The notes under the pieces were generated by a model. The model worked only from the letters and a program-made list of their open reading frames with translations, ran no database searches and had not been told where the DNA came from. The position numbers and the translations under genes were made by a program. A stretch of 64,000 nucleotides of DNA from Marchantia polymorpha subsp. ruderalis (taxonomy: Eukaryota > Streptophyta > Marchantiopsida > Marchantiales > Marchantiaceae): NCBI GenBank assembly GCA_037833965.1, contig AP031353.1, positions 13,332,501-13,396,500 of the forward strand. Reading direction: 5' to 3'. How positions within the stretch are numbered: the stretch's first letter is position 1; every line of letters begins with the position of its first letter. This document shows positions 29,280 through 50,320 of the stretch, in pieces.

Positions 29280-29571
29280 TGTGCTCACACAACGCCGTCA
29301 CGACCCTCCAACAGGAGAACTCAGAAGGTAACACCTCCCGCACCCGCAAGATTGTGCGTTCCGCCGTCACATCCAATGTCGTCGGTGTAGTCTGCTGTAG
29401 ATAGACGTAGTCTCCCACATGGAATCTACGAATTGATGGTCGATAACCTCCTCCCTGAATGGTTGCATACCGCAACGTATCTCTATGTTGAGCAATCGCA
29501 AGATTCTCAAACGCTGCAGGCATAACTCTCTGAAAGAGCTCTGCACGCTGAGAACATACTCTCACCCACAT
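29280..29571 (-). pseudogene. Integrase C-terminal fragment of a gypsy element
   Basis: The minus frame contains AFENLAIAQHRDTLRYA and FHVGDYVYLQQ..., then ILRVREVLPS; a shifted frame continues VLLLEGRDG. The order AQHRDTLRYA - FxVGDxVYL - LRVxEVLPS - LLLEGRDG matches the end of gypsy integrases (GPY/F-like region). A 1-2 base frameshift separates the last two blocks. It probably belongs to the same element type as the PHD tail at 26701-27000. Confidence 0.6.
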
Positions 29572-29585
29572 ATTCGGGTTTTATT

Positions 29586-31546
29586 CCACCCACAATGGAG
29601 GTGGAATTGGGTGTGTCAGGACATGGTGCCCGAGTGGCAGAAGGGCAGGGACCAACCTACGCGCGGATTTCGACCGCACGTAGAGCGATGGGACATCACT
29701 GACTGGAAGCAGGTGTTGGGAAGATGCGCGGGAGAGGCCAGGCATCTTCTATTTGAGAGTGAAAGCATCAAGGTCACGAAGGAGGAGGAGATTTCCTTCG
29801 CGGCCCTTTTCAAGAGCAGCAAGTCCAGCAAGAACGGGTACAAGACCCGGGACTACAAGTATCGCTACCGCAAAAATGTCGCGGTAGCACTTCTTCAGCT
29901 CTTGTAGCCGCACAGGACCACCTACATCACTTCTTGGCAGGTGGCATTCGTGGAGCTGGCGTTGGCCGGAGCTCCAATTCATTGGGCTCGCATCCTGTGG
30001 AAGATAACGAGGCAGCATGCTTTCGAGGAGAAGGGACGATCGATCAATCACCTCTCCCCCTTCTTGATCAATTTCTATCGGTCGATGGATTGTCTGACCG
30101 CAACCAAGTGAGTGCAATTTCCATTGCTGTCACGCAGCAATCCGGGGCGGTACGTGAAGGACGTCGAGGTCGACACCAACGAAGACGAGACTCTTGCCTG
30201 CACGCCATCAGCCCAACCGAGAGCCGAAGGAGAATCGCTTGCAACACGAGTGCCGCGGAAGCGAAGATGGGAAGGAGGAGCAAAGAAGGGCCAACAATGC
30301 AATTTGGCTGCTCTCAAACGGAAGCGGCCACTGCAAGAGCTCTTCAGTCGGCCTAAGCAGAAGGCACGCAGACTCGTGTTGCCTACAAGTAGCGCGGAGA
30401 CGGGGCGTGCCGCAGAGGGGAAGGACTCACCATCCCTGGAGGAGGATAGGAGCGCGCGGACTGCAGACAGGTCAGCGGACCTCCTTGCGCCGAAGGCACG
30501 GATGCCTTCGGTGGAAGCAAGACGGCCTTCGGGCTAGGAGAGACAACACGCGGCACCGACGAACGTGCCGGCGGCGGATAGGTGCTCCGAGCAAGTACCG
30601 TTCGCTGAATCGATTGGGTCAGGAGCCTTCGGCTCAAGCGCCTTCGGCGTAGCGGAGAAGTGGGAAGGAGCCTGCGGATAGAGCGCCTTCGGCTCAAGGG
30701 CCTTCGGCCCAAGAGCTTGTGAGTAGGGAGTCTTCGGGGCAAGAGCCTTCGGCGAAAGCGCCGCCGGACGATGCGCCTTCGGCTCAAGGGCCTTCGGCCC
30801 AAGGGACTTCGGGTGAGTCGCCTTCGGCGGAAGCCCAATGCGGGGGGATAGACGACGGAGAGAAGGGGAAGACACGTGTGCCTTCGGCGCAGCCGCCTTC
30901 GGCTCAAACGCCTTCGGCGCTGCGGCTTTGGTAGCGACAGATTGGGCGGGCGGTGCGAGCTTGTCGAAGACTGGATCCCCCACCGCCTTAGACATTTTGG
31001 CAGGGAGTAGTGCGGCAGCAGCAAAAGCAAAAGCTACGCAGCCCAACTCCCGGGAATCGCAAGGGAATTCCGTGGCAATCGAAATCCTCAATTCGGAGGA
31101 TGACGGAGGCGAATCGGGCTCGGACGAGGAGGAGGAACAGTCAGTGAAAGGCACGCCGACAACGGCACTGTGCGAACAGATGGTACCTCTGTTGAGGTAT
31201 CTCAATCGCAAGGTGGCGAAGTACGCTGACCCCCGCCACCCTGGGTCCTACGTCGAATTGGTGCGCAGGCGAACTCACACCAAAGTCAGAACCAGTAAAT
31301 TGTTAGCTTCCTTGGACGAGGACATCAAGGACCTGCGATTGAAGAACGAGGCCCTCTGCGGACACCTCGCAATCGTGCGGAAGTTGTAGAAGGCAGTTAA
31401 GAAGACGCGAGACGATAAGTTCGAGGAGGCGAAGAAGGAGTTCGTCAAGGAGCAGGCGAAGCTCGCGGATGAGTTCGATTCTGAGCAAACTCAGAATCGT
31501 ATCTTGTCAGAGGAGCTCGTGCGGCAGACACGGTTGCTGGAGCAAT
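29586..31546 (+). pseudogene. Diverged relative of the LTR-encoded protein (older copy)
   Basis: The sequence parallels residues 120-880 of the intact LTR protein with many substitutions: RWNWVCQDMVPEW, TRGFRPHVERW, SESIKVTKEEE, KNGYKTRDYKYRYRK, PIHWARILWKITRQHAFEEKG, SPFLINFYR, RPKQKARRLVLP, an acidic patch, then KYADPRHPGSYVELVRRR. It ends in ILSEELVRQTRLLEQ at the border with the LTR at 31547. Stops include 29905-29907 and 31387-31389 (both TAG, CAG in relatives), and frameshifts occur at about 30110 and in the GCCTTCGGC-rich part 30490-30920. It defines a second protein subfamily. N- and C-termini are missing. Confidence 0.85.
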
Positions 31547-33703
31547 TGTAATAACCTACCAAAGGCTAAAACTGCAATATAGTGGTAGAAAGGTCGAACC
31601 CACAGGGACAGAGGCAACACACAGAGTACAAAGTGTCACATTTAACAGACTATTGAAGAGTTTGAATTCTCAGGCGACTGTCACTCCCATAAATACTTCA
31701 AGTGTTCACTCGGAGCTCACTCGGAGGTCGCACAGTGCAGCGTAGTTCACTCAACACACACACACACCTGAAACTATAGAAACACAACTCAGAGGTCGGT
31801 TAGGACCTCTACTTAAGATTTCGGGGGGAAAGTCTCTCGCAAATACACTCAGCGAATCTGCGGGTAGTGACTCCCAACTCCGGCTTCTACAATCCTTCCA
31901 CTAGTTTCTGCTAGCATAGGGCACCCAGTTTGGACTTCCTACTTCGGATCGAAGTCACTCACACACGGTGAACAACACTCTCAACTCACAAAACGCGCAG
32001 AGAACACAGGTCCAACTTAGAGACTCAACTGAGAAACGATCCAATAACACACCATAACAGTCTATTGAAGAGTTTGAATTCTTAGGCACTTGTCATTCCT
32101 AGAAATACTACAGAGGTTTGCCCTGAAGGCACCTACTGCAACGTAACCTGAATTACAACCAATGCTTACTCGAAGTAACAAAACTTCACTTTGGCATTCA
32201 GGGGAAAAATCCCGAAGGAGTACAATCAAGAACAATCACTCGAAGGTGTAGGGGCGAACTGTTCAAGTATCTAACTAGTCACTAGCTCTGAGCATCGGCA
32301 ATCACCCGCAAGTGTGGTTCCGAACTACTCAAGTCTCTAACCAGTACACTAGCTCTGAACATTCGGCCGAAGGCCTTCAGCTACAAAATGTGGATCGCCA
32401 AGTTGTAGCTCCTCTTGCGTGGTGACAGAACTAAGTACACAAACACGCAGAGAAAATGAGTTCCTGATCTGCACTTCCGAAACCGGAAGAATCCCAAGGC
32501 AAGACGCCTTGAACTACTTTATACCTTCTAAGTCCTAACTAACACTACACTACCTGCTATGGTGCGAGCCGCAACAGATCCTACACCTGAGGAGTCGGTG
32601 GCTGCCTTCCCCTCTAACTTACAACCTAAATCTAACCCTAACCCTTAATCTGAATCCTAAGCCTACTGTAGAGAGCCGCCAGCGTCTTTAACCGCTTTAC
32701 ATCCAAGATCTGAGGCTGAAAATTTGCAGGCATGCGTGGCGGGCTAACATCAACGGCCCCACCAAATTCAGATTCATCCGACTGTCCATCGCAAAGATAT
32801 GGGCCCCGCAAGATCTCTGAACCTAGGCCGAAATTCCTTCTCCAAAATCCGAGGTCCGGGGGACCCACATGCCGCTTGAATGCCGTTCCTGCGATTATGG
32901 GTAACGGCCTGCTCCTCACGTGCGACTTCACGCCCCGCCGTTCTGCCTCCCACACGCGACTTCACGCCCCGCTGTTCTACTTCTCACACTTGACATAATC
33001 CCGCCAATTTCCGCCATCGGGAATCTTCTGCCATGTGGCGCCGAAGGCGTCTACCGCCGAAGGCCCTTGCCCCGAAGGCGCTTGACCCGAAGTCCGTTGA
33101 CCTGAAGTCGCTTGACCCGAAGGCCTCTCTATCAGTAACTTCCGACACTCATAACTCATTGATCTATTATTCGTTTCAAGCATTCTTGGGCTTGTTAGAA
33201 CGAGCGGGTCGAGCTCTTTCCAACGAGACCCTCATCAAGTCAAGGCAATATGAATTGAGAAAGTTATGAGAGATTCACTCTTCCGCCAAAGGCGTACCGC
33301 CGAAGGCACTCTTCCGCCGAAGGCGTCTTCCGCCGAAGGCCCCACATCAGTAACTTCCAACACTCATAACTCAATGACCTCTCATCCGTTTCACAAGTTC
33401 TTGGGCTCGTTAGAACCAGCGCGTTGAGTTTTTTCTAACAAGACCCTAAATAATTCAAGGCGTTACGAATTGAGAAAGTTATGAGTGATCTACTGCCGAA
33501 GGTGCTCGAAGCGGGTCCTGCAGCATGAACCGCCCGTTCCATCCCAAGCGTTCGACTGTGGCCTAAGCCCAAAACCCCTTGACTGTCCTCGATACTCTTT
33601 TTACTCTGGTTTTGCGTACCAATTACTTTTTACAGCTGCTACCGCGGTATAACTATTCAGAAATGTTTTAGTTCCGACGAAAAACAAAAAGTGGGTTACC
33701 ACA
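31547..33703 (-). mobile_element. Short LTR without the long frame (frameless class), solo
   Basis: Minus-strand ends are TGTGGTAACCCAC (33703) and ..TTATTACA (31547), 2157 bp. The first kilobase in window order (31547-32557) matches the R/U5 of the long LTRs, including the TATA region near 32515-32525. The remaining U3 (32558-33703) is unrelated to the coding LTRs and matches 1269-2190 and 27820-29190. Flanking pentamers (GCAAT left, CTCCT right) do not match, so it is not a simple insertion with its own duplication. It may come from recombination between two elements. Confidence 0.85.
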
Positions 33704-33733: not shown

Positions 33734-34703
33734 ACTCTTGTAATAACCCACTAAAGGCTAAAACTGCAATATAGTGGTAGAAAGGTCGAACCCACAGAGA
33801 CAGAGGAACACACAGGGTACAAAGTGTCACGTTTTAACAGACTATTGAGGAGTTTGAATTCTCAGGCAACTGTCACTCCCAGAAATACTGCAAGTGTCCA
33901 CTCGGAGCGCACTCGGAGGTCGCACAGTGCAGCGTAACACACACACACACACACACCTGAAACTACAGAAACACAACCCAGAGATCCGTTAGGACCTCTA
34001 CTTCAAGATTTCAGGGGGAAAGTCTCTCACGAGCACACTCGGCAAAGCTGCGGGCAGTGACTTCCAACTCCGGCTTTTACAACACTTCCACTAGCTTGCT
34101 GCTAGTGTAGGAAACCCGGTTTGGACTGCCTACTTCGGATCGAAGTCACTCCTACGCGGTGAACAACACTCTCAACTCACAAAACGCGCAGAGAACACAG
34201 GTCCGCACTGAAGGACTCACTGTGAAACATTCCAGTAACACAACAACAGTCTATTGAAGAGTTTGAATTCTCAGGCACTTGTCATTCCCAGAAATACTAC
34301 AGGGGTTACCCTCAAGGCACCTGCTGCAGCGTAACCTGAATTTACAACCAAGGCTTACACGAAGTAGCAAAACTTCACTTTGGCATTCAGGGGAAAAATC
34401 CCAAGGGAGTGCAATCAGAAAGAAACACTCGAAGGTGTAGGGGCGAAACTGTTCAAGTATCTAACTAGTCACTGGCTCTAAGCATCGGCAGTCACCCGCA
34501 GGTGCAGATCCGAACTACTCAAGTCTCTAACCAATGTACTAGCTCTGAACATTCGGCCGCAGGCCTTCAGCTACAAAATGCGGAACGCTAAGTTGTAACT
34601 CCTCATGCGTGGTGACAGAACTCAAGGACACAAACACGCAAAGGAAATGGGTTCCTGATCTGCACTTCTGATGGGAAAGAACCCCAGGCAAAACGCCTGG
34701 AAC

Positions 34704-34712
34704 TATTTTATA
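34704..34712 (-). promoter_or_regulatory. TATA box of the 3' LTR
   Basis: TATAAAATA on the minus strand, 37 bases after the LTR frame, followed by the CCAGGC/GCCTGG hairpin. Same arrangement as in the other LTRs. Confidence 0.7.
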
Positions 34713-34748
34713 CCTTCTAAGTCCTACCTAACACTACACTGCACTACG

Positions 34749-37700
34749 CTACACGCCTGCACGGAACCACGCTACACTACACTCCGCGGAACCTGTACTA
34801 CGTCTCCTGCGCGGCCGACTGCCGCGCACTAACTCTCTACCCTGCCACTCTTCCGCTCGACTGCGCAGTCCCAAACGCTGCAACGCCGCGGACACCTCCC
34901 CTTCGAGGGCGGACATGGTATCCTGTGCCTTCGACAGAAAGGCTTCGAGCTTCTTTGCTACCTTCCGCCGACTCCTACTGTCGCCTGACAACAACCCGGC
35001 TGCGCGCAATTCAAACTCACGCAGTGTGAGTTTCTCCTGCGCCTTCACTTCCCAGTGGGCGTAGCCCTTGAGACAGTGGGCGACTCGCCTCGCCGTCTCC
35101 ACCTTCGTGCGATCCGCCTCCTTCCTGCGATCCTCTTCAATTATCACTAATTGCGATTCGGCTTCAGCACGTTGCGCCCTCAATTCGCCACACTTTGACT
35201 GTAACCTGCGGATTAATTCTTCATCCGCCTGCCGTGCGAGCTGACATTGTTCCAACAACCGCGTCTGTCGCACGAGCTCCTCTGACAAAATCCGATTCTG
35301 GGCCTGCTCAGAATCGAGTGCCTCCTTGACCTTCACCTGCTCCTTGGTGAGCTCGCCCAGTTTCTCATCCTTCATCTTCTCGGAGTGCTTGTAGAATTTC
35401 TGATTAAGCTTGTACTGACCCCACAAGCACTCATGCTTCTCCTTCAAGTCCCTCAACTCCTGGTCCACTCTAGCTAATAGCTTGCTGGTGTGGACTTTAG
35501 TGCGAGTCCGCCTGCGCACTAACTCGATGTAAGATCCCGGCTGGAGTGGGTCGGCGTATTTATCGACCTTGCGATCCAAGTACCGCAGCAACGGAATCAC
35601 CTGCTCAGAGAGCGCCGCCGCCGGCGCTCCAACAATTTCCTCCTCCTCCTCGGTGTCTTCTGCTCCTGACATTTCTTCCGTGGAGCCTCCGTCGTCATCA
35701 TCCGAGTGGAGAATTTCAGTCGCCATTGATTGCGTCGGCGACTGCCCCGAGTGGGGCTGTACGTCGTCGACGTGCGCTGCCTGCGAGGGCACGGCTGCAG
35801 CCTCGCTGCTCGTCGCCAAAATGTCTAAGGCGGAAGGCGAATGTATCCGAGCGGCATCCCCGTCGCTCGCTGGTTGATTGCCTACCGCATTCTCTCTGTC
35901 TCCGTCGCCGAAGGCGGTCGAGCGGAGGGTGGCTGCGCGGGGTTTGATTGCGCATCGCGCATCGAGATTTCATCCCGCGGACAGTCACTCCGCTCCTCCG
36001 TCTGCTGCTCCCTTGATCGGTCCGTGGGGGCTGTGCCCGGCCCGTGCGCAGGCGCATTTGCCGGCGCCTTGTCCGCCGCGGGCGTAGCGCCGCGGACATC
36101 TATCGCCGAAGGCGACATGGCCGGGGGCCGCACGCCCGATGTTCCTTGGCCTATAGGCCCTACCGCCGAAGGCGCATCTATCGGCGGACTTCCCGCCGGT
36201 GGTGCGGCCTCCGCACGCTCTCTGCTCGTATCTCCTCGGCTCGAAGGCCCTGGCGCCGAAGGCGCAAATTGCGGCGCGTGGTGCGCCGGAGGGTCTGGCC
36301 CCGAGGGCCGGTGTCTCGTAGGCGGTTCTTCCGCCGGCTCCTTCCCCTTCCTGCGTTGGAACGGGGGTGATTCTTGCCTGTGCACAGGCGGCACGTGCGG
36401 AGGTGTCCTGTGCACAAGCGACCTGTGCACAGGTGAGCGCCTGTGCACAGGCGGACTGCTCCTTCCCACGCGTAAGCGTAGATCCACGTCCACTTGTGTT
36501 CGCCGGTCCGCGGAGGCTCGTCCGTCCGCGGAGGTTCGCCTGTGCGCAAACGGAATATCTGTCCGCATCGCACGTGGTAACTCCGGAGGCCCTTGGCCCG
36601 TAGGCGGCCTCTCTCCCGACGAGGTTGCAGCGTGGCCCGTTGCTCCTGCGGTCGTCCGCGCTTCCTCTCGCCTCTCTGGCGACGCACTTCCTATCTCCGT
36701 CGCAATCGTCGCCGTGTCCGCACTGTCAGCTGGTAACACCAGTCTGCGTGCCTTCTGCTTCGGCCGGCTGTATGGCTCGCACAGCGGCCGCGGTCGAATG
36801 GGAGCAGAGGGTTCTTGATGCTGCTCCTCTTCAGACTCTTCCCTCCATCGCCGCTTCCGCGGCACTCGCGCTGCAGGGGTGTGTCTCCCTTCGTCCCTCC
36901 GTCTTGATGGGGTAAAAGTCGGTGACTCCTCTGCATCAGTATCGACCTCGTTCTCCCGCACATACTTCCCGGGATGGTCGATGGACAATGGCGGAAAATG
37001 TTCAAGCTCCGCCGCTGTCAAACAATTCCGCTGTCGATAAAAATTGATGAGGAAAGGAGAAAGATGGTTTAGAGTTCCCCCCTTCTCCTCAAACGCGTGC
37101 TGTCGCATCACCCTGTGCAGGATGCTCGCCCAGTGAATTGGAGTTCCCTCGATGACGCACTCCACAAAAGAGACTTGCCACAATGTGATGTAGCAGGCGC
37201 GGTGCGGCTGCAGTAATTGCATCAGCGCCGCGGACAGAGTCCGGCGAAATCGATCCTTGTAATCACGGGTCCTGTACCCATTCTTGGTAGACCTCCCGGT
37301 CTTGAACAGCTCCACAAATTGCGCCTCTTCTTGCTTGGTCACCTTGATGCTCTCGCTGTCGAAAAGGAGATGCCCTGGCATGCCAGCACATCTTCCCAAC
37401 GCCTGCGCCCAATCTTGGACTGTCTACCGATCAACATGCGGACGCAATCCGCGCGAGGGTGGTCCCTGTGGCTCTAGCCACTCGCGCACCATATTCGCAC
37501 AGATGTAATTCCATCCCCATAGCAAGAAATCGAGCTCTCTTGCTATTAAGCGCTCCTCGAAGGCGCGCAGCCCGTTCTGCGGCAGGCGAAGTGGCACCAT
37601 CCGCAATCTGCTCGGTCTCGTCATTGCGTTCCTGGGGTTCGCTCGCCCGCTCATTCTACTTCCGCACCGCCCGTGCTTCTTTCTCTCTCGGCAAACTCTA

Positions 37701-37876
37701 ATCGCTCTCAATTCCAAATCACGCGCACTCACTTCTCCCTCAATCAACAAGAAATCTCCTGTGCGACGACGTCGAGAATGTTCCGCAGCCAGCAGATGGA
37801 TGCGCGCAGCGCGCACAAGAGATTGGAATCGCGAATTCAAGAATGGGACGTTCTCCGCCGCCCGGTCGAAGGTCAT
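34749..37876 (-). pseudogene. LTR-encoded protein in the 3' LTR, two lesions
   Basis: Starts at 37876. A TAG at 37424-37426 replaces the tryptophan of PHVDRW (residue 151). The frame then runs open 37423-35882. A 7-base deletion near 35895 (compare 47082-47100 in the 5' LTR) shifts the frame, and the coiled-coil part 35819-34749 continues in the new frame. Neither lesion is present in the 5' LTR copy. The product would be the transposon extra protein described at 15815. Confidence 0.88.
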
Positions 37877-39124
37877 GGTCGGCTCTTGGTCGTGAAGAAC
37901 GTCTCACTTGATGGCCGCGCCGGCTGTACGCTGGAACGGTCTTCGCTCTCACGCGCGGCTTCACGCTCCGCCGTCGTCGATTAAACTCTCACGCTCGAAT
38001 TGGCAGGATTTGAACTCCGCGAGCGTGTCACCCTGCGGACATGGGGGCGTAGTGCCGAAGGCGAGTTTTCCGCCTTGCGCGGTACACTTGTTCGTACCGT
38101 CCCTCGGCCAATCTCCCTCTGCCTTGACGCGTGTGTCCGCATGTCGGACAAAAATTCAACTCCTGCCTGTGCGCAGGCAGGAGCCTCGGCGGATCCTCCG
38201 CCGGTGCGGAACTTGAACATCCTCCTATGCACAGGCATTCGCCTGTGCGCAGGCGAATTCCGTCCACGGCGCTGCGCTGGCGCGGAAGGCGTTGACCGTG
38301 GTCAGCCGTCTCCGTCCAGTCTGTCCGTTCCTGGTCTCTCCGTCGGCGTTTCCGCCGCCGCAACTCCGTCCGTCCAAGAGCGCATCCCCCCGTGCCGTCC
38401 GCATGGTCCGTACCGATTGGATTACTCTGACGGCTCTTCCGACGTACGCGGCGCTGCGCTGGCGCGGAAGGCGCCGTACACTTTCTACCTCACAAGGCGC
38501 ATTTCTAGGGCCCAAGGCGGATTTTCCGCCGACGCCGAAGTGCCTGTGCACAGGCGAACGCCTGTGCGTAGGCGGACTTCGCGCCTTCCCTAACCCTACT
38601 TCGCCTGTGCACAGGCGAACGCCTTCGTCCGCGCATAGGACAAAACTTGAATCCCCCTTCCGCGTAGGCGGAATTCGCGCCGGTGGCGAACTCCTTCCGC
38701 CGTAGGCGACCGCCTCCGTTTCTTCCAGTAGCGATAACTCCCTAAGTCCTCATCCGTTCCAAGCGTTCTTGGGCTCGTTAGAATCAGCGCGTCGAGCTCT
38801 TTCCAACGGGATCCTAACTTGGCCAAGGCGCCCGAGGTTTGACCTAACTATGGAGGGTTTCCCTACAGCCGCGGACGCAACCTCCGAAGGCGGGTTTTGC
38901 GCCTTGCGCCGTAGAGATCCTATCTGCAGAGCGCGCAGGGAGGGTGGTGCCTGTCCTTACTGCGGCACCCCAAATCCCAGATTCTACAAGATCCCTCGAG
39001 AATCCCCGCGATCTTCCGGATTCACTCTGTTTTGATGTACCGAAGGCTATTTACAATGCTGCCAGGGTACAGTTTTCCAAAAATGTTTTAATTTCCTCAA
39101 AATTGCCAAAAGTGGGGTACCACA

Positions 39125-39138
39125 TGCCCCCCTCCTCA
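39125..39138 (-). other. Polypurine tract
   Basis: The minus strand reads TGAGGAGGGGGGCA directly before the 3' LTR start TGTGGTACC. It is the expected primer for plus-strand synthesis and lies 23 bases beyond the pol stop. Confidence 0.85.
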
Positions 39139-39161
39139 ATTGTGAGCGCCCACGCGAACAC

Positions 39162-42002
39162 TCACATGTGGTATTTCTTCAACCGCCACCCGTTCACTCG
39201 GGTGCCTAACAAATCGCCGGCCAGGTCCGCAAGTTGGATGGATCCATTCGGGAAGACTTCGACAACCCTGTAAGGTCCCATCCACCTTAGGTGCAGTTTG
39301 CCTGGGAATCTGGCATGCCTGCTGTCGTAGAGTAATGCCAAATCACCCGCCTGCAGGAGTACCGGTTTGATCTTTTTATCGTATCTCTCCTTTCGACGGA
39401 GCTGGATTTTCCTGGTGCGATCTTCGGCGTCTCTTCTCCTCTCATCCAGCAGCGTGACCTCCTGTAACCTGTAGAGCTGACTCTCCTCTGCGCCCATCCT
39501 CTGCAAATCCAACGTTCGTTGGGTGGGTACTTCAAATTCGATCGGGAGGATCGGGTGTTGCCCATAGACCAGAAAGTATGGTGTCTGCTTGGTCGTGATC
39601 TTCTCAGCTGTGCGGTACGCCCATAGAGCGGCTGCTAGCTTCGTATCCCAGTCGTGAGCGTGATTCACCGTGACCTTGAGTAGTATTTTACACAGCAGAC
39701 CATTGGACTTCTCCGTCAATCCATTTGCCTTGGGATTGTATGGAGTAGTCTTCCGGTGCTTGATGTGGAAATACCGTGTCAGATCTTCGATGATCTGATT
39801 CAGAAAATGCGTGCCCCGGTCGCTGACTAGCTCTAAGGGACATCCGTAGCGTGTGATGATCGACTCAAACAAGAATGCTGCCACTGTGGCAGCATCATCC
39901 CTTCTGGTGGCCCTGGCCTCTACCATTTTGGTGGCGTAGTCCGTTGCTACCAGAATGTAGCGCCTTCGTGTACTTCTAGTCACTGGTTGTATCGGCCCTA
40001 CAAAGTCAATACCCCACTTTTCGAAAGGTGCTAGAGGCATGATGGGAGTCAGGGGCCAGCGTGTTGTAGGCGTCGGTCTCCCCGTCCTCTGGCAACTGTC
40101 GCACTTGCGGATGTAATTGAGAACATCCTTAAACATGGTCGGCCACCAATACCCCGCATTTAGGATCTTTGTGACCGTGTTCCTGGTGGCATAGTGTCCA
40201 CCCGCCTCCTCTGTATGCATCGCACTCACTATTCTTGGTACCTCTGATTCCTCCAGGCATCTGCATAAGCGCTCATCTGCCATCTTCTTGAACAAAATCC
40301 CCTGCTGGAGTTGGTACGGACCTGCCTTATGAATAAAGACAGTTCGCTGTTCCAAATCCATGCCTTCGGGACACTGGAGGGTTAGCAGATATCGATACAG
40401 GTCGGCATAGCGGGACTCATGTCCTGCAGACAACTGAAATAACTCTTCATCTGGAAAATCGTCCACCAATTCCTCCTCTGTCGGCTGTGTCCATAATCGG
40501 GACAAGTAATCCGCATTTTCGTGGTGCACCCCTTTCCTGGTCTGGACTGTGTAGGTGAACTCTTGTAGTAACAACACCCACCTGGCGATCCGACCGGATA
40601 GGTCGGCTTTCTTGACTAGGTGTTGCAATGCGTAGTGGTCCACATGGAACACAAACTCGTAGCAGATTAGGTAGTGACGGAACTTTTTACAGGAGTACAC
40701 CATCCCCAACGCTTCTCTCTCCGTCGTGGTGTACTTCCGCTCTGCTAGAGACAGCTGTCGGCTCGCGAAGTAGATCGGGTAGTCCTTTTTGTTGTCATCC
40801 TTTTGACTCAGTACTACACCGATGGCGAATGCCGAGGTGTCAACGTAAACATGGAATGGTCGATTCCAGTCTGGACTCCTTAGTACGGGAGCAGTCGTGA
40901 GTTTCGCTTTAAGAGTCTCAAATGCTGACTGCTGGTTCGCACCCCAAGCATAAGGCTCGTCCTTCTTCAACAACTTGGTCAGGTCCGCCGCCAGTATTGC
41001 ATACAGGTGTATGAATCTTCGGTAGTAGCCCACATGACCCAGGAATGCTCGCAGCTCTCTTAGATTCGTGGGTGGTTCAAGCTCGAGTATAACCTTGACC
41101 TTCTCGATGTCCACCGCAATGCCGTCTGCCGAGACCCGATGCCCCAACAAGATCCCACTAGTCATAAAGAAAAAGCACTTCTCGGGATGCAGTGATAAAC
41201 TGCTCTCCCTACATTTATCGAAGGTCTGCTTCAAGTGACTTAGGTGTTCAGACCGCTTCCCAAAGACACAGAAGTCATCTATGAATATTTCCAGGAACTT
41301 CCTCAGTTGTTCCTGAAAGATATTGGTCATCATCCGTTGAAAGGTGGCAGGCGCGTTGCACAGACCGAAGGGCATCTTGTGGTATGCGTAAGTTCCCCAG
41401 TCGGTTGTGAACGTAGTTTTATCCTTGTCCTGTTCACGGATAGACACCTGATTGTAACCTGAGAACCCATCCAGGAAGCTATAACATTCATGTCCGGCAA
41501 CATGGTCTAGAATGGCATCCGTGAATGGTAACGGGTGATGATCCTTGCGTGTTGCTGCATTCAACTTCCGGAAATCCTGACACACTCGTATCTTACCCGT
41601 CAACTTCTTGGGTACGATAACAATCGGCGACACCCACTCGCTGCTGAGCACAGGGTAAATAATTCCAGCGCTCAAGTACTTATCTATCTCCTCTTTAACT
41701 AGCAAGGAGTATTTTGGGTTGAGGCGATACTGGCGCTGTCGTATGGGTACTGAGTCGTCCAGTAAATCGATACGGTGTTCCCCGTACCGCGCAGGTATCC
41801 CCTTCATGTCTTCGATCTTCCAGGCGAAGACGTCGACATAATGGCTAAGGAATGCCTGTACTTTCCTTAGCTCGTCTCCTCTCACCGCGCTTGATACCTT
41901 CAAGCACTTGCCGGGACTGAGTTGTACTTCGTGACAGTCACTAGGGTCGACAATGCCCTCGGTGTGACTCGTCTCACTCCTTCCCAGTCCCACAGTTAAT
42001 TG
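39162..42002 (-). CDS. pol: Pol: reverse transcriptase, RNase H, integrase (readthrough extension)
   Basis: The frame follows the UAG at 42005-42003 directly; the first possible initiator is only GTG (41993), so it is most likely made by readthrough. Counting from that GTG: RT about residues 100-290 with FIDDF at 237-241; RNase H about 380-500 (VYVDTSAFAIG; TTTEREAL; FHVDHYAL); integrase zinc-binding region 593-634 (H-x-H then CDSC); and catalytic core D663 (WGIDFVG), D725 (VSDRGTHF) and E761 (GLTEKSNG). The C-terminus FPGKLHLRWMGPYRVVEVFPNGS then VNGWRLKKYHM has no chromodomain. All catalytic residues are present and there are no internal stops, so it looks functional. It copies element RNA and integrates the DNA. 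Confidence 0.95.
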   Translation of the reverse strand, partial: QLTVGLGRSETSHTEGIVDPSDCHEVQLSPGKCLKVSSAVRGDELRKVQAFLSHYVDVFAWKIEDMKGIPARYGEHRIDLLDDSVPIRQRQYRLNPKYSLLVKEEIDKYLSAGIIYPVLSSEWVSPIVIVPKKLTGKIRVCQDFRKLNAATRKDHHPLPFTDAILDHVAGHECYSFLDGFSGYNQVSIREQDKDKTTFTTDWGTYAYHKMPFGLCNAPATFQRMMTNIFQEQLRKFLEIFIDDFCVFGKRSEHLSHLKQTFDKCRESSLSLHPEKCFFFMTSGILLGHRVSADGIAVDIEKVKVILELEPPTNLRELRAFLGHVGYYRRFIHLYAILAADLTKLLKKDEPYAWGANQQSAFETLKAKLTTAPVLRSPDWNRPFHVYVDTSAFAIGVVLSQKDDNKKDYPIYFASRQLSLAERKYTTTEREALGMVYSCKKFRHYLICYEFVFHVDHYALQHLVKKADLSGRIARWVLLLQEFTYTVQTRKGVHHENADYLSRLWTQPTEEELVDDFPDEELFQLSAGHESRYADLYRYLLTLQCPEGMDLEQRTVFIHKAGPYQLQQGILFKKMADERLCRCLEESEVPRIVSAMHTEEAGGHYATRNTVTKILNAGYWWPTMFKDVLNYIRKCDSCQRTGRPTPTTRWPLTPIMPLAPFEKWGIDFVGPIQPVTRSTRRRYILVATDYATKMVEARATRRDDAATVAAFLFESIITRYGCPLELVSDRGTHFLNQIIEDLTRYFHIKHRKTTPYNPKANGLTEKSNGLLCKILLKVTVNHAHDWDTKLAAALWAYRTAEKITTKQTPYFLVYGQHPILPIEFEVPTQRTLDLQRMGAEESQLYRLQEVTLLDERRRDAEDRTRKIQLRRKERYDKKIKPVLLQAGDLALLYDSRHARFPGKLHLRWMGPYRVVEVFPNGSIQLADLAGDLLGTRVNGWRLKKYHM

Positions 42003-42005
42003 CTA
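41997..42005 (-). promoter_or_regulatory. Readthrough stop context UAG-CAA-UUA between gag-pro and pol
   Basis: On the minus strand the gag-pro frame ends GAC GAA TAG CAA TTA ACT GTG GGA, and the pol frame is the same frame. UAG followed by CAA-UUA is the tobacco mosaic virus replicase readthrough context (CARYYA rule). No frameshift is needed. It would set a low Pol:Gag ratio through tRNA suppression of UAG. Confidence 0.8.
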
Positions 42006-44834
42006 TTCGTCTTCCGGCTGAATAGCTTCCGGCTCTTCTTCTTCTCCCACCGAACAGCAGGCAACGAATCCCACGAAGTAATCGGATTCGGTACCACTGG
42101 AATCCGATCGCGCGGTCGACTCACTGTCCTCGCCCGATGTGTAACCTGCACTTGTCGATGGGGTCTCTCCTTCGTGTCTGACCCTATTCCAGGGCACCGT
42201 AATGGTCTTGGTCGGTTCCGAAGGATGAGGAAACTTAAGGCGATGTCGTCGCCAATCACATCTGACTTGTGCACCATATAGCCATGGTCGCCCGAGCAGA
42301 ACGTCATAGCCCTGCTTCATCATCGGTTGAAGGATGATATACGTCAACCGAAAGTCCGCACCCCCGATGATCGTCTTGACATTGCGCAGCATACCTGCAG
42401 GCATTCTCCGCGTCTGATCCGCTAATCTCAACACACGCTTCGAGGGTTCGTATTGACTGAACCCCAAGGCTCTCGCTGTATCCTCCGTCATTATGTTGAC
42501 TCCTGATCCAGAGTCGATTGGCACTCTGCGTACACAACATCCTGCTATCTCCACATCGATCTCTGGTGGCCCTTGGTCTTCGCTCTCCACTTGATATACT
42601 TGAGAGGATGTGGATGCGCGCGGCTTCCGCGGATGCCGTAGCGAAAGCATCAACATTCTCCGATACGTCTTATTGTCCTCCAAGAGCTGCTTGAACGTGA
42701 TGTTCACTTTTCGACTCCCGAGATCTTCGACCAAGTCATAGTGGGCGCGTTGGGGCGCCGGGGTCGGCGACGCTCTGCGAGGTTCCACGGTGGCTGCTAA
42801 CTTCGCCCCAAGGGAGGAGGTCAAGTCTGGCCGCGGTGGGTCCTTTTGAGTGCGGATCGCTTCCTGCAACAGGTTGGCTACCTCGTTGCGGATATCCGGA
42901 GCATAGTTACGTTTCAGTAGGCGCACTGGCTCGTCCTCGACTGCTGTCTGGGGGCGCACTGCTGGTGCCTCCCGCGTAGCCGAAGACTTCCGAGCAGGTC
43001 GCGAGTCGGCCTTGCTGGATGTCTTCTCCTTCCCTTTTCCCGTCCGGTCGTCGGTTCTCCGTTCGTGCTTGCGAGTGTCCCGCTCTTGCTCCTTCGATTT
43101 CTTGGAACTACGAGTTTCGACCCGTGCGCACATAACCTCTTCAGCCGGCCATTCTTCGTCTTCGCCATCCCCGTCTGAACCTACTTCGACCTGGTTAACT
43201 TGGACGTCCTCCTTGGCAGGAGTGTTCACAAATCGTACCGCTGGCCGAGGGACTGGTGGCTGATCACACTCTGGCGCAGTATGCCCGATCTTCTTGCAAT
43301 TACTACATGTCGGAGCATAATCGTTTCGCCTTTTTGGATGGGGACACTGCGGTGAGAAGTGCCCAACTTCCCCGCAATTATAACAAGCTCGCGGTGGCGG
43401 TGGGTCAAACGTCCCTGGAAGTGCTCTCCGCCTCACGGGTACTGTAGTGGCCCGATCCACCGGGATATATCGTGGGACTTGCATTGCTGAAACTGCAGGA
43501 GGGGTAGGAACCGACTGGACGGCGTAGGCTGTCTCTTCGCTAGCCTCTCCATAGTACTGAGGGTGCTCTCCATAGTACGGTTGTGCCCACTCTACTGCGT
43601 TGACTGGATATGACGGACGGGTGGTAAGGCACTCGGTGTTTGCATGTCCCACCGCCCCGCACGTAGTACACCATAAGTTCGCTCGCACTCTCCCGGGTGA
43701 TTTTCGGCGATCATGCCCGCCTACCACTTGAACCTTGAGATCGGCGAAGTCCTTCACCAGGGTCTCCATCTTCGAGGCTATGTCTCCCGGCGCTCTGTCC
43801 GTAGTCACTCGTCGGGTGCCCTTTTTCTTCGCTGACCCATGCTTCTTCCTCTTCTTCTCCTCCTCCGACGATGAGGTTTCCTCTTCTTCGGATGAGGAAC
43901 GGTTCTCGTCCGAAGACGATTCCTCCGATGACGGAGTTGTACCTCTACGTCGTCTTCGCCCTCCCTTCGGTTTTCGCTCTTTCGACTCCTGTCTCTCTCT
44001 CCCTCTCCGGTTGAGAGTGGAAGTTTCGAAGGCTTCCGCCGATGCAATCACATCCTCAATAGTGTCGCACTTACTGCGTCGGCAAAAAGTCTCCATCTCC
44101 CGAGTTAAACCGGTCACGTACCAATCCACAGCTTGTTGTACCGAGAAAGGGGACCCTGGTCCTGTTTTCGGTATTCTGTCGAGGAGGTCCAGAAATCTCT
44201 CAGTGTAGTCACGCAGACTCTCCTTCTTCTCTCGCTGCAAATTACGTAACTTTGTTAAAACCCGGCTGTCGTAGCCGAGCTCGCGAAAGCGGCGAAGGAA
44301 CTTCTCCTTCAGCTGGGCCCATGTTGTCAACCCAGTCGGATCGATACTCTCGTGATTGTACCAACTCCTCGCTTTCTTCCGCAGAAGGCTTGGAAAGATC
44401 CTTAGTCGGTCGTCGTCTGCGATCTCGCGATTGGCAATAGACACCGATTCGAACAACTTGATGTATGAATCTGCATCGTCGTCATCCCCACTCCCTTTGT
44501 ACTTCGGGTAGGAATGTTTAGTAATCGGCTGAGGTAGCCGCACATTGGCTTGTCCGTCCGCCATCGGTGTGTCTGTCGACGGTCTTCGGGCGGTCGGTTC
44601 TACTTCACGAGGCGGGTCCGTGCAAGGAATATCTAGTAGAACTGTAAGCACCAAGTTTGGTTCCGAGTCGCCGGGGGTAGGTTCCCCAAGGATGTCGGCC
44701 GAACTAGGCTTAGGTACTCTTTTTGGTGTTTTCTTGTTTTGACGCCGTGTCTCTTCCACGGCCTTCTCTGAATCTCGTCGGAACTTGCGGACAGCTCTAG
44801 CACTTAGGTTGCTCCCGCCAGCCCCAGTCGACAT
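42003..44834 (-). CDS. gag-pro: Gag-protease polyprotein, 943 aa
   Basis: The ATG is at 44834, 87 bases after the 5' LTR. Residues about 105-260 form a gypsy-type capsid domain (YPKYKGSGDDD..., WYNHES...TWAQLKEKFLRRF, LRDYTERFLDLLDRI). Residues 290-345 are an Arg/Ser/Glu low-complexity stretch. Three CCHC zinc knuckles lie at 389-402, 484-497 and 510-523; the wide gap between the first and second is unusual. A basic linker 570-625 follows. The aspartic protease is at about 755-870, with active site PIDSGSG (772-778) and the C-terminal LLGRPWL motif (846-852). An acidic/Ser tail runs to the UAG. It packages element RNA and processes the polyprotein. No stops or frameshifts. Confidence 0.95.
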   Translation of the reverse strand: MSTGAGGSNLSARAVRKFRRDSEKAVEETRRQNKKTPKRVPKPSSADILGEPTPGDSEPNLVLTVLLDIPCTDPPREVEPTARRPSTDTPMADGQANVRLPQPITKHSYPKYKGSGDDDDADSYIKLFESVSIANREIADDDRLRIFPSLLRKKARSWYNHESIDPTGLTTWAQLKEKFLRRFRELGYDSRVLTKLRNLQREKKESLRDYTERFLDLLDRIPKTGPGSPFSVQQAVDWYVTGLTREMETFCRRSKCDTIEDVIASAEAFETSTLNRRGRERQESKERKPKGGRRRRRGTTPSSEESSSDENRSSSEEEETSSSEEEKKRKKHGSAKKKGTRRVTTDRAPGDIASKMETLVKDFADLKVQVVGGHDRRKSPGRVRANLWCTTCGAVGHANTECLTTRPSYPVNAVEWAQPYYGEHPQYYGEASEETAYAVQSVPTPPAVSAMQVPRYIPVDRATTVPVRRRALPGTFDPPPPRACYNCGEVGHFSPQCPHPKRRNDYAPTCSNCKKIGHTAPECDQPPVPRPAVRFVNTPAKEDVQVNQVEVGSDGDGEDEEWPAEEVMCARVETRSSKKSKEQERDTRKHERRTDDRTGKGKEKTSSKADSRPARKSSATREAPAVRPQTAVEDEPVRLLKRNYAPDIRNEVANLLQEAIRTQKDPPRPDLTSSLGAKLAATVEPRRASPTPAPQRAHYDLVEDLGSRKVNITFKQLLEDNKTYRRMLMLSLRHPRKPRASTSSQVYQVESEDQGPPEIDVEIAGCCVRRVPIDSGSGVNIMTEDTARALGFSQYEPSKRVLRLADQTRRMPAGMLRNVKTIIGGADFRLTYIILQPMMKQGYDVLLGRPWLYGAQVRCDWRRHRLKFPHPSEPTKTITVPWNRVRHEGETPSTSAGYTSGEDSESTARSDSSGTESDYFVGFVACCSVGEEEEPEAIQPEDE

Positions 44835-44880
44835 TCACCGAGCATGGCTGCTCGTAAAAACCCCGGTGTTGACGCAACTG

Positions 44881-44898
44881 TCCCCGGCAGCGGCGCCA
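44881..44898 (-). other. Primer-binding site, tRNA-Asp type
   Basis: The minus strand TGGCGCCGCTGCCGGGGA matches the tRNA-Asp-type PBS of Athila-like elements (TGGCGCCGTTGCCGGGGA) with one difference. It is separated from the LTR end (44921) by 22 bases instead of the usual few. The spacer holds a small inverted repeat AAGAAG/CTTCTT. Confidence 0.9.
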
Positions 44899-45884
44899 AA
44901 AAGAAGTTGTCGGCTTCTTATGTAATAACCCACTAAAGGCTAAAACTGCAATATAGTGGTAGAAAGGTCGAACCCACAGGGACAGAGGAACACACAGGGT
45001 ACAAAGTGTCACGTTTTAACAGACTATTGAGGAGTTTGAATTCTCAGGCAACTGTCACTCCCAGAAATACTGCAAGTGTCCACTCGGAGCGCACTCGGAG
45101 GTCGCACAGTGCAGCGTAACACACACACACACACACACCTGAAACTACAGAAACACAACCCAGAGATCCGTTAGGACCTCTACTTCAAGATTTCAGGGGG
45201 AAAGTCTCTCACGAGCACACTCGGCAAAGCTGCGGGCAGTGACTTCCAACTCCGGCTTTTACAACACTTCCACTAGCTTGCTGCTAGTGTAGGAAACCCG
45301 GTTTGGACTGCCTACTTCGGATCGAAGTCACTCCTACGCGGTGAACAACACTCTCAACTCACAAAACGCGCAGAGAACACAGGTCCGCACTGAAGGACTC
45401 ACTGTGAAACATTCCATAACACAACAACAGTCTATTGAAGAGTTTGAATTCTCAGGCACTTGTCATTCCCAGAAATACTACAGGGGTTACCCTCAAGGCA
45501 CCTGCTGCAGCGTAACCTGAATTTACAACCAAGGCTTACACGAAGTAGCAAAACTTCACTTTGGCATTCAGGGGAAAAATCCCAAGGGAGTACAATCAGA
45601 AAGAAACACTCGAAGGTGTAGGGGCGAAACTGTTCAAGTATCTAACTAGTCACTGGCTCTGAGCATCGGCAGTGACCCGCAGGTGCAGATCCGAACTACT
45701 CAAGTCTCTAACCAATGTACTAGCTCTGAACATTCGGCCGCAGGCCTTCAGCTACAAAATGCGGAACGCTAAGTTGTAACTCCTCATGCGTGGTGACAGA
45801 ACTCAAGGACACAAACACGCAAAGGAAATGGGTTCCTGATCTGCACTTCTGATGGGAAAGAACTCCAGGCAAAACGCCTGGAAC

Positions 45885-45893
45885 TATTTTATA
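45885..45893 (-). promoter_or_regulatory. TATA box of the 5' LTR (genomic RNA promoter)
   Basis: TATAAAATA on the minus strand; the CCAGGC/GCCTGG hairpin follows. The expected RNA start is near 45855-45863. This is the only clear core promoter upstream of gag. Confidence 0.7.
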
Positions 45894-45929
45894 CCTTCTA
45901 AGTCCTACCTAACACTACACTGCACTACG

Positions 45930-48900
45930 CTACACGCCTGCACGGAACCACGCTACACTACACTCCGCGGAACCTGTACTACGTCTCCTGCGCGGCCGAC
46001 TGCCGCGCACTAACTCTCTACCCTGCCACTCTTCCGCTCGACTGCGCAGTCCCAAACGCTGCAACGCCGCGGACACCTCCCCTTCGAGGGCGGACATGGT
46101 ATCCTGTGCCTTCGACAGAAAGGCTTCGAGCTTCTTTGCTACCTTCCGCCGACTCCTACTGTCGCCTGACAACAACCCGGCTGCGCGCAATTCAAACTCA
46201 CGCAGTGTGAGTTTCTCCTGCGCCTTCACTTCCTAGTGGGTGTAGCCCTTGAGACAGTGGGCGACTCGCCTCGCCGTCTCCACCTTCGTGCGATCCGCCT
46301 CCTTCCTGCGATCCTCTTCAATTATCACTAATTGCGATTCGGCTTCAGCACGTTGCGCCCTCAATTCGCCACACTCTGACTGTAACCTGCGGATTAATTC
46401 TTCATCCGCCTGCCGTGCGAGCTGACATTGTTCCAACAACCGCGTCTGTCGCACGAGCTCCTCTGACAAAATCCGATTCTGGGCCTGCTCAGAATCGAGT
46501 GCCTCCTTGACCTTCACCTGCTCCTTGGTGAGCTCGCCCAGTTTCTCATCCTTCATCTTCTCGGAGTGCTTGTAGAATTTCTGATTAAGCTTGTACTGAC
46601 CCCACAAGCACTCATGCTTCTCCTTCAAGTCCCTCAACTCCTGGTCCACTCTAGCTAATAGCTTGCTGGTGTGGACTTTAGTGCGAGTCCGCCTGCGCAC
46701 TAACTCGATGTAAGATCCCGGCTGGAGTGGGTCGGCGTATTTATCGACCTTGCGATCCAAGTACCGCAGCAACGGAATCACCTGCTCAGAGAGCGCCGCC
46801 GCCGGCGCTCCAACAATTTCCTCCTCCTCCTCCTCGGTGTCTTCTGCTCCTGACATTTTTTCCGTGGAGCCTCCGTCGTCATCATCCGAGTGGAGAATTT
46901 CAGTCGCCATTGATTGCGTCGGCGACTGCCCCGAGTGGGGCTGTACGTCGTCGACGTGCGCTGCCTGCGAGGGCACGGCTGCAGCCTCGCTGCTCGTCGC
47001 CAAAATGTCTAAGGCGGAAGGCGAATGTATCCGAGCGGCATCCCCGTCGCTCGCTGGTTGATTGCCTACCGCATTCTCTCTGTCGCCGTCGTCCGTCGCC
47101 GAAGGCGGTCGAGCGGAGGGTGGCTGCGCGGGGTTTGATTGCGCATCGCGCATCGAGATTTCATCCCGCGGACAGTCACTCCGCTCCTCCGTCTGCTGCT
47201 CCCTTGATCGGTCCGTGGGGGCTGTGCCCGGCCCGTGCGCAGGCGCATTTGCCGGCGCCTTGTCCGCCGCGGGCGTAGCGCCGCGGACATCTATCGCCGA
47301 AGGCGACATGGCCGGGGGGCCGCACGCCCGATGTTCCTTGGCCTATAGGCCCTACCGCCGAAGGCGCATCTATCGGCGGACTTCCCGCCGGTGGTGCGGC
47401 CTCCGCACGCTCTCTGCTCGTATCTCCTCGGCTCGAAGGCCCTGGCGCCGAAGGCGCAAATTGCGGCGCGTGGTGCGCCGGAGGGTCTGGCCCCGAGGGC
47501 CGGTGTCTCGTAGGCGGTTCTTCCGCCGGCTCCTTCCCCTTCCTGCGTTGGAACGGGGGTGATTCTTGCCTGTGCACAGGCGGCACGTGCGGAGGTGTCC
47601 TGTGCACAGGCGACCTGTGCACAGGTGAGCGCCTGTGCACAGGCGGACTGCTCCTTCCCACGCGTAAGCGTAGATCCACGTCCACTTGTGTTCGCCGGTC
47701 CGCGGAGGCTCGTCCGTCCGCGGAGGTTCGCCTGTGCGCAAACGGAACATCTGTCCGCATCGCACGTGGTAACTCCGGAGGCCCTTGGCCCGTAGGCGGC
47801 CTCTCTCCCGACGAGGTTGCAGCGTGGCCCGTTGCTCCTGCGGTCGTCCGCGCTTCCTCTCGCCTCTCTGGCGACGCACTTCCTATCTCCGTCGCAATCG
47901 TCGCCGTGTCCGCACTGTCAGTTGGTAACACCAGTCTGCGTGCCTTCTGCTTCGGCCGGCTGTATGGCTAGCACAGCGGCCGCGGTCGAATGGGAGCAGA
48001 GGGTTCTTGATGCTGCTCCTCTTCAGACTCTTCCCTCCATCGCCGCTTCCGCGGCACTCGCGCTGCAGGGGTGTGTCTCCCTTCGTCCCTCCGTCTTGAT
48101 GGGGTAGAAGTCGGTGACTCCTCTGCATCAGTATCGACCTCGTTCTCCCGCACATACTTCCCGGGATGGTCGATGGACAATGGCGGAAAATGTTCAAGCT
48201 CCGCCGCTGTCAAACAATTCCGCTGTCGATAAAAATTGATGAGGAAAGGAGAAAGATGGTTTAGAGTTCCCCCCTTCTCCTCAAACGCGTGCTGTCGCAT
48301 CACCCTGTGCAGGATGCTCGCCCAGTGAATTGGAGTTCCCTCGATGACGCACTCCACAAAAGAGACTTGCCACAATGTGATGTAGCAGGCGCGGTGCGGC
48401 TGCAGTAATTGCATCAGCGCCGCGGACAGAGTCCGGCGAAATCGATCCTTGTAATCACGGGTCCTGTACCCATTCTTGGTAGACCTCCCGGTCTTGAACA
48501 GCTCCACAAATTGCGCCTCTTCTTGCTTGGTCACCTTGATGCTCTCGCTGTCGAAAAGGAGATGCCCTGGCATGCCAGCACATCTTCCCAACGCCTGCGC
48601 CCAATCTTGGACTGTCCACCGATCAACATGCGGACGCAATCCGCGCGAGGGTGGTCCCTGTGGCTCTAGCCACTCGCGCACCATATTCGCACAGATGTAA
48701 TTCCATCCCCATAGCAAGAAATCGAGCTTTCTTGCTATTAAGCGCTCCTCGAAGGCGCGCAGCCCGTTCTGCGGCAGGCGAAGTGGCACCATCCGCAATC
48801 TGCTCGGTCTCGTCATTGCGTTCCTGGGGTTCGCTCGCCCGCTCATTCTACTTCCGCACCGCCCGTGCTTCTTTCTCTCTCGGCAAACTCTAATCGCTCT

Positions 48901-49068
48901 CAATTCCAAATCACGCGCACTCACTTCTCCCTCAATCAACAAGAAATCTCCTGTGCGACGACGTCGAGAATGTTCCGCAGCCAGCAGATGGATGCGCGCA
49001 GCGCGCACAAGAGATTGGAATCGCGAATTCAAGAATGGGACGTTCTCCGCCGCCCGGTCGAAGGTCAT
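45930..49068 (-). pseudogene. LTR-encoded protein in the 5' LTR, three lesions
   Basis: Starts at 49068. TAG at 47968-47970 replaces the glutamate after RPRPLC. One extra G in a G-run at about 47313 shifts the frame. TAG at 46233-46235 replaces the tryptophan of YAHWEV. The final part 46229-45930 is open. All lesions are private to this LTR; the 3' LTR has the normal bases there. Since the two LTRs were identical at insertion, the inserting element probably carried an unbroken frame. Confidence 0.88.
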
Positions 49069-50320
49069 GGTCGGCTCTTGGTCGTGAAGAACGTCTCACT
49101 TGATGGCCGCGCCGGCTGTACGCTGGAACGGTCTTCGCTCTCACGCGCGGCTTCACGCTCCGCCGTCGTCGATTAAACTCTCACGCTCGAATTGGCGGAT
49201 TTGAACTCCGCGAGCGTGTCACCCTGCGGACATGGGGGCGTAGTGCCGAAGGCGAGTTTTCCGCCTTGCGCGGTACACTTGTTCGTACCGTCCCTCGGCC
49301 AATCTCCCTCTGCCTTGACGCGTGTGTCCGCATGTCGGACAAAAATTCAACTCCTGCTTGTGCGCAGGCAGGAGCCTCGGCGGATCCTCCGCCGGTGCGG
49401 AACTTGAACATCCTCCTGTGCACAGGCATTCGCCTGTGCGCAGGTGAATTCCGTCCGCGGCGCTGCGCTGGCGCGGAAGGCGTTGACCGTAGTCAGCCGT
49501 CTCCGTCCAGTCTGTCCGTTCCTGGTCTCTCCGTCGGCGCTTCCGCCGCCGCAACTCCGTCCGTCCAAGAGCGCATCCCCCCGTGCCGTCCGCATGGTCC
49601 GTACCGATTGGATTACTCTGACGGCTCTTCCGACGTACGCGGCGCTGCGCTGGCGCGGAAGGCGCCGTACACTTTCTACCTCACAAGGCGCATTTCTAGG
49701 GCCCAAGGCGGATTTTCCGCCGACGCCGAAGTGCCTGTGCACAGGCGAACGCCTGTGCGTAGGCGGACTTCGCGCCTTCCCTAACCCTACTTCGCCTGTG
49801 CACAGGCGAACGCCTTCGTCCGCGCATAGGACAAAACTTGAATCCCCCTTCCGCGTAGGCGGAATTCGCGCCGGTGGCGAACTCCTTCCGCCGTAGGCGA
49901 CCGCCTCCGTTTCTTCCAGTAGCGATAACTCCCTAAGTCCTCATCCGTTCCAAGCGTTCTTGGGCTCGTTAGAATCAGCGCGTCGAGCTCTTTCCAACGG
50001 GATCCTAACTTGGCCAAGGCGCCCGAGGTTTGACCTAACTATGGAGGGTTTCCCTACAGCCGCGGACGCAACCTCCGAAGGCGGGTTTTGCGCCTTGCGT
50101 CGTAGAGATCCTATCTGCAGAGCGCGCAGGGAGGGTGGTGCCTGTCCTTACTGCGGCACCCCAAATCCCAGATTCTACAAGATCCCTCGAGAATCCCCGC
50201 GATCTTCCGGATTCACTCTGTTTTGATGTACCGAAGGCTATTTACAATGCTGCCAGGCTACAGTTTTCCAAAAATATTTTAATTTCCTCAAAATTGCCAA
50301 AAGTGGGGTACCACAACTCT

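Follow-up and report, generated by a model that had tools for sequence, protein, structure and literature searches.

A selected protein-coding frame inside the long terminal repeats of a Ty3/gypsy retrotransposon of Marchantia polymorpha

Accessory frames of retroelements and the Marchantia frame

A conserved extra open reading frame (ORF) of unclear function is carried by several plant long terminal repeat (LTR) retrotransposons, among them Grande, RIRE2, Retand, Athila, Bagy2 and the group of Retrosat2, RIRE3 and RIRE8 with its ORF0, and the last three also possess long LTRs of approximately 3 kb. These additional ORFs are internal and mostly located between pol and the 3' LTR according to the section of PMC7264820 that treats them, and ORF0 of Retrosat2 is placed upstream of gag-pol in the corresponding part of PMC3485330. 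The element analysed here, a Ty3/gypsy retrotransposon at 33739-50315 (minus strand) of a 64,000-nucleotide stretch of Marchantia polymorpha subsp. ruderalis (assembly GCA_037833965.1, contig AP031353.1, positions 13,332,501 to 13,396,500; hereafter the window), likewise has a conserved extra frame, selected in many copies. In contrast to the internal ORFs of the other plant elements, this frame is found inside the LTR, which is an unusual location for an extra gene of a plant mobile element. Among the papers listed by phrase searches of the open-licence literature no plant element was recognised as having a protein frame inside an LTR, and an earlier report may exist.

Genes at such a position are known from an animal retrovirus, as sag lies in the U3 (unique 3') region of mouse mammary tumour virus (MMTV). 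Sag is a type II transmembrane superantigen, whereas the Marchantia U3 protein has neither a membrane segment nor a Pfam match; Pfam has a Sag model, and no Sag family was among the hits of the whole U3 protein or of 13 N-terminal sequences. In the part of PMC11998498 dealing with it, Sag is LTR-encoded and open in most endogenous copies. The Marchantia frame resembles sag in being a retroelement protein encoded by the LTR, in the sense orientation and wholly within U3, with the start of the transcript inferred from a TATA box. Another likeness, proposed by analogy, is to VANC of the Arabidopsis VANDAL elements, which are DNA transposons; the Pfam scan gave no sequence relation between VANC and the U3 protein. 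The passages of PMC5735166 on VANC describe it as encoded by the element and acting on repeated motifs of that same element. A third protein, CERV of the Caenorhabditis elegans element Cer1, is presented in the relevant part of PMC10309623 as a nuclear accessory protein that an LTR retrotransposon produces from a spliced mRNA, and it is likened to the U3 protein as an accessory nuclear protein by description only.

The sole open U3 frame of the window is situated at 15815-18949 (plus strand; LTR positions 1166-4300) in a solo LTR, and spans 1,044 amino acids from its ATG (1,053 from stop to stop). It is preceded by a noncoding U3 leader (14650-15814, plus strand) with four dyad sites of the form GCCT-N6-AGGC, and it ends 36 bases before the TATA box TATAAAAT (18986-18993, plus strand), the presumed start signal of the genomic RNA. 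Because the frame ends ahead of this TATA box we place it in U3. It has the same sense as gag-pol, and hence the earlier claim of a reading made from the sequence only, that the frame lies wholly between the LTR start and the TATA box in the gag-pol sense, holds, with U3 inferred. The TATA box is kept in 22 of 23 aligned LTR copies; these come from 30 loci fetched after a protein search of the own genome, seven of which were dropped (L019 and L023, without the start motif, and five loci of one tandem array).

In the diverged copy L059, whose protein is 57% identical, the frame end is followed within about 70 bases by GGTATAAAGTAG. As L059 shares both the frame and the TATA box, the arrangement seems to be old and to precede the split of these copies. 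No TATA-like stretch was seen in the part of the diverged copy L061 that was available, where LTR similarity stops soon past the frame, and L060 gave no match to the frame end.

The 30 loci, which include the solo LTR of the window that carries the open frame, also show where the LTR ends. Perfect 5-bp duplications stand directly at the LTR ends of 10 loci (9 outside the window), seven loci run into a primer site and six follow a purine tract, with two loci belonging to both groups; nine were left unclassed by the end motifs used. All ten duplication-flanked loci are 5.3-5.4 kb long and their LTR encloses the U3 frame, which is free of stops in eight and has one stop each in L010 and L031. The sequence-only reading had named LTR borders that leave the frame outside as evidence that would tell against it, and these loci point the other way.

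Selection on the U3 frame

The U3 frame is clearly under purifying selection as a protein. In the protein search of the own genome 39 of 44 scored matches (of 13,826 candidates) are without a stop, and for the 26 distinct sequences among the 30 fetched the ratio of nonsynonymous to synonymous differences per site (pN/pS) is 0.14. This value is biased because the copies were picked by protein similarity, and therefore a second sample was drawn by means of the noncoding tail of the LTR. It comprises 20 of 40 full-length places that match this 1,013-base tail, spread over the chromosomes; they were taken from near the top of the list and thus represent relatively young, tail-similar copies. The frame is fully open in nine of them and interrupted by a single stop, without a frameshift, in three more; five are frameshifted, two have large gaps and one is poorly aligned. 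In the 12 frameshift-free copies pN/pS is 0.228 (bootstrap 0.176-0.295), leaving out the five frameshifted copies, L048 and L050 (1,762 and 1,417 bases missing) and the poorly aligned L043 (85% identical). The five frameshifted copies alone give 0.30.

The signal is specific for this frame. The other two sense frames of the same 12 copies have pN/pS of 1.94 and 1.42, and the variable sites fall mainly on the third codon position (62, 61 and 176 at positions 1, 2 and 3; 46, 37 and 112 when only non-CpG sites are counted). One antisense frame has a ratio of 0.27; all 12 copies have 13-16 stops in it, which makes it a shadow of the sense frame and no gene. The 20 alignments contain 55 counted gaps, of which 15 are frame-shifting; many of the other 40 are common to several copies, and no argument is built on them. 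Constraint is strongest in codons 101-400 (pN/pS 0.02-0.05) and weak in codons 401-500 (0.50).

Selection can also be traced among more distant relatives. Three diverged copies (L059, L060 and L061) and a fourth at 29.5-31.5 kb of the window have 53-62% protein identity over the aligned codons, and the ratio of nonsynonymous to synonymous substitution rates (dN/dS) is 0.25-0.33 at a dS of 0.91-1.32 in all four. The low dN/dS together with the conservation in diverged copies indicates that the protein has been kept over a long time. A dN/dS near 1 among young copies, together with a lack of RNA over the frame, had been named in advance as damaging to the idea of a functional gene, and the ratios found are far below 1.

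The diverged relative in the window (29596-31546, plus strand) is degenerate and 53% identical over 617 aligned codons. Its middle (30400-30930) is full of GCCTTCGG repeats, with 14 in 29596-31546 where 0.14 are expected. The same octamer also occurs in leader-side sequence close by, which looks as though a short motif were spreading through coding and noncoding parts alike.

The element and its copies in the window and the genome

The element at 33739-50315 is a whole Ty3/gypsy retrotransposon of 16,577 bp, flanked by the target duplication ACTCT at 33734-33738 and 50316-50320. The 5' LTR (44921-50315, minus strand; 5,395 bp) and the 3' LTR (33739-39124, minus strand; 5,386 bp) share 99.3% identity across 5,397 alignment columns in a self-comparison of the window, and the LTR pair with ACTCT on both flanks bears out the retrotransposon with 5.4-kb LTRs that had been proposed at this place. 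A primer-binding-site-like stretch, TGGCGCCGCTGCCGGGGA (44881-44898, minus strand), lies 22 bases inward of the 5' LTR border and presumably resembles the complement of the 3' end of tRNA-Asp, while the polypurine tract TGAGGAGGGGGGCA (39125-39138, minus strand) directly adjoins the 3' LTR.

Between them, a gag-protease frame of 943 amino acids (42003-44834, minus strand) with Retrotrans_gag, CCHC knuckles and an aspartyl protease ends in TAG followed by CAATTA, and a pol frame of 946 amino acids (39162-42002, minus strand) with reverse transcriptase, RNase H and integrase continues the gag frame past this TAG. The Pfam domain order, with the protease (a match below the Pfam cut-off) at the end of the gag frame and then RVT_1, RT_RNaseH, Integrase_H2C2 and rve, is that of Ty3/gypsy elements, as are the TG...CA ends of the LTRs, the primer-binding-site-like stretch, the polypurine tract and the short target duplication. 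A chromodomain, the mark of the chromovirus branch, was not found after the integrase in Pfam at a limit of E 10, where the HMMER filters drop most matches above 0.1.

The gag-pol junction itself deserves attention. Gag and pol share one frame that is parted by TAG-CAATTA (41997-42005, minus strand), and a search for the junction with this codon left open matched 538 places in the genome, with TAG in 100 of 100 among the matches listed. The readthrough motif of tobamoviruses is UAG-CARYYA in the part of PMC3542737 concerned, and the junction has this type I form together with an in-frame continuation. Judged by its sequence, UAG-CAAUUA is best read as a putative programmed readthrough site, and it adds a likely natural example of readthrough in a plant retroelement.

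Six LTR copies of the family are present in the window, two in the element and four solo, the latter resolved from blast pieces and their flanks. The solo LTR with the uninterrupted frame (14650-19962, plus strand; duplication GTGGG) sits in the terminal bases of another one (9250-14649, minus strand, with its rest at 19968-19975; GTCAT), whose U3 frame has a single stop at codon 784. The outermost solo LTR of this nest (7322-23377, plus strand; TAAAT) is split into the pieces 7322-9249 and 19976-23377 and has a badly broken frame. The fourth (260-6287, minus strand; GAGAG) contains an insert at 1269-2199, and its frame is disrupted around codon 275 and truncated at 976. The five target duplications claimed for the element and the four solo LTRs are thus confirmed.

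The fate of the frame in these copies qualifies two earlier statements. The sequence-only reading had each LTR of the element encode a protein of about 1045 codons; the LTR does contain a frame of about 1,050 codons in the sense orientation, but both copies in the element are broken. In the 5' copy codons 376 and 953 are stops and the frame shifts near 593; in the 3' copy codon 160 is a stop and the shift lies near 665. An element inserts with identical LTRs, and since the two copies do not have their lesions in common, the frame was probably still intact at that time. It had also been stated that the frame is duplicated with each insertion and survives as a stand-alone gene in every solo LTR. 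The frame is copied each time and eight of the ten duplication-flanked loci are free of stops, but in the window it survives in one of the four solo LTRs, and a solo LTR would be a working stand-alone gene only as a proposal.

Other repeats accompany these copies. A further minus-strand LTR piece (31547-32868), about 89% similar to the family, adjoins the diverged plus-strand frame at 31546. Beyond it, at 32600-33703, CCGAAGGC is found seven times where 0.1 are expected. Two tandem duplications lie between the elements, one of 24081-24517 and 24521-24956 (99.3% identical) and one of 25657-25950 and 25948-26241 (99.7%).

The family is abundant. An exact 19-base LTR end has 3,469 occurrences genome-wide and the junction of LTR and primer site 802, so that with an LTR of 5.4 kb and a body of 5.8 kb the family would occupy roughly one tenth of the 241-Mb genome, a rough figure because copies can be truncated and diverged ends missed. 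A pol search scored 48 of 4,913 candidates, and 45 of the 48 are without a stop. Some copies are regularly spaced, by 21.85 kb on contig C7 (7.66-7.75 Mb) and by about 11.2 kb on C3 (22.62-22.65 Mb) and C2 (31.35-31.38 Mb). The copies on C3 form chains of LTR, body, LTR and body, and in L033 and L034 one LTR has a purine tract before it and a primer site after it. On the small contig C1, at about 2.4, 2.8 and 3.2 Mb, matches recur as triplets of identical score spaced about 0.34-0.41 Mb apart, a pattern that suggests a large tandem triplication.

The U3 protein, its possible role and its meaning

The predicted U3 protein has the basic clusters RRRR, RKKR and RKRR, a proline-rich middle and an acidic patch, and its residues 801-1000 are without proline. 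These features suggest a nuclear protein with a probable C-terminal coiled coil. A membrane protein is unlikely, because its highest 19-residue Kyte-Doolittle mean is 1.14 and no segment is transmembrane-like. A presumed resemblance to the plant transposon domain PF20167 gave no match in a family search of the own genome, but its 14 controls gave none either.

The leader in front of the frame has properties of its own. Across the 23 LTRs, the two 150-base windows leading into the ATG have per-site diversities of 0.017 and 0.006, the second window including 35 coding bases, and leader positions 151-900 have values of 0.025-0.041. The motif GCCT-N6-AGGC occurs four times in the leader, twice in the frame, five times at 27800-29595 before the diverged frame, and not at all in gag-pol or the tail, whereas shuffled sequences give at most 0.10 per region. 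Two to five such sites are present in the leader of each of the 23 copies, and the diversity of their arms is 0.0086 against 0.039 in the surroundings.

We consider it rather probable that this is a high-copy Ty3/gypsy family with an accessory gene in U3 that is older than the present subfamilies and needed for the spread of the element itself, its product being likeliest a nuclear coiled-coil protein. The main promoter would be situated after the U3 gene; with such a promoter the gene is only the last cistron of the genomic RNA, read from the 3' LTR. For a gene held only at the 3' end of this RNA, either splicing or a transcription start within the leader would be needed; the most likely sources of expression would be a spliced RNA or a second promoter in the 1.1-kb U3 leader, a region also present in solo LTRs. 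The likeliest role would be that of a nuclear, coiled-coil and probably dimeric protein that acts on the LTR DNA or RNA of its own element, and the leading idea of a mechanism is that a dimer may act on the GCCT-N6-AGGC sites. Taken alone, a role as regulator or anti-silencer on LTR sites seems quite plausible, if short of probable; RNA export, packaging or particle assembly is a tentative option, and so is a role of some other kind.

Several observations weigh against this picture. The N-terminus of the protein is weakly constrained (pN/pS 0.54 in codons 1-100), as are the middle codons 401-700 (dN/dS 0.32-0.73 in the comparison of diverged copies). The conserved core at approximately residues 105-320, in itself evidence in favour, has 42 invariant columns across 13 N-terminal sequences, a number somewhat inflated by the choice of ten of these (L062-L071), among 150 matches, for open frames and similarity. 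The coiled coil and the nuclear signals were judged by composition alone. The whole protein has one Pfam match only (12.6 bits against a cut-off of 29.7), the 13 N-terminal sequences together have six scattered Pfam matches, each in one of the 13 (best E 0.12), the PDB holds no sequence match, and two AlphaFold models are of low confidence (mean predicted local distance difference test scores of 36 and 44). Moreover, diversity is also low in the first 150 bases of the leader (0.012), so that the region at the ATG is not alone in this; the conservation of the dyad arms is not significant against CpG-matched random sites (fraction 0.08), and the link of the dyad sites to the U3 protein is a proposal at the level of analogy.

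Other explanations differ in how well they account for a selected frame at this position. A mere passenger, captured or arisen by chance in the LTR and open only through the youth of its copies, would fit the many young copies (as in the LTR pair of the element) and the 11 of 20 tail-sampled copies that are not fully open. Such a frame is hardly expected to have a frame-specific pN/pS of 0.23 or a protein conserved to a dS near 1, and the similar ratio of the antisense frame is a shadow full of stops; hence we reject this most improbable reading, unless a mutational bias respects that single frame. An envelope-like or movement protein that moved into U3 would agree with the sense orientation of the frame and its place at the 3' end of the genomic RNA, as plant envelope-like frames are sense and lie between pol and the 3' LTR in the pertinent part of PMC7264820. 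The maximal hydropathy is below membrane-spanning strength and speaks strongly against this, the transmembrane segment of envelope-like plant retrotransposons is missing, and there is no family match; this very unlikely reading was rejected as well.

The two remaining alternatives concern the stage at which the protein works. It may function at the RNA or particle stage, in export or packaging of the genomic RNA or in particle formation, and be made from a spliced RNA with its last exon in the 3' LTR. The position as last cistron, which the TATA box behind the frame implies, is consistent with this, as are the basic clusters and the coiled-coil character, which would suit RNA binding or assembly, and the spliced-mRNA accessory protein CERV of Cer1, to which the relevant part of PMC10309623 assigns a role in nuclear export, offers a precedent; no Pfam or PDB match supports it, and we hold it as a tentative possibility. 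By analogy, the protein may also be a VANC-like anti-silencer of its own element that binds short motifs repeated within the LTR and erases silencing marks. VANC targets are often tandem repeats and vary considerably among related elements in the account that PMC5735166 gives of them, and the recurrent leader dyads (n = 23) and the same-arm sites before the diverged relative would be in line with such targets; here, too, a supporting Pfam match is missing and the conservation of the dyads loses significance once CpG is matched, so that this reading is somewhat doubtful. A bolder version of the favoured accessory gene, in which the LTR is a selfish regulatory gene with its own promoter, a dimeric DNA-binding protein, the dyad targets of this protein and a terminator, and in which intact LTRs supply the family in trans, appears rather unlikely. 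If true, each insertion and each intact solo LTR would add a working copy, which would help to explain the thousands of LTRs.

A selected gene in U3 is doubled by every insertion and stays behind in every solo LTR, so that the loss of the body by LTR recombination spares the accessory function. The Marchantia family offers a testable system for how an element can retain the use of a trans-acting protein once its copies have decayed. It is also a warning for annotation, as frames inside LTRs could be called host genes or discarded along with the LTR.

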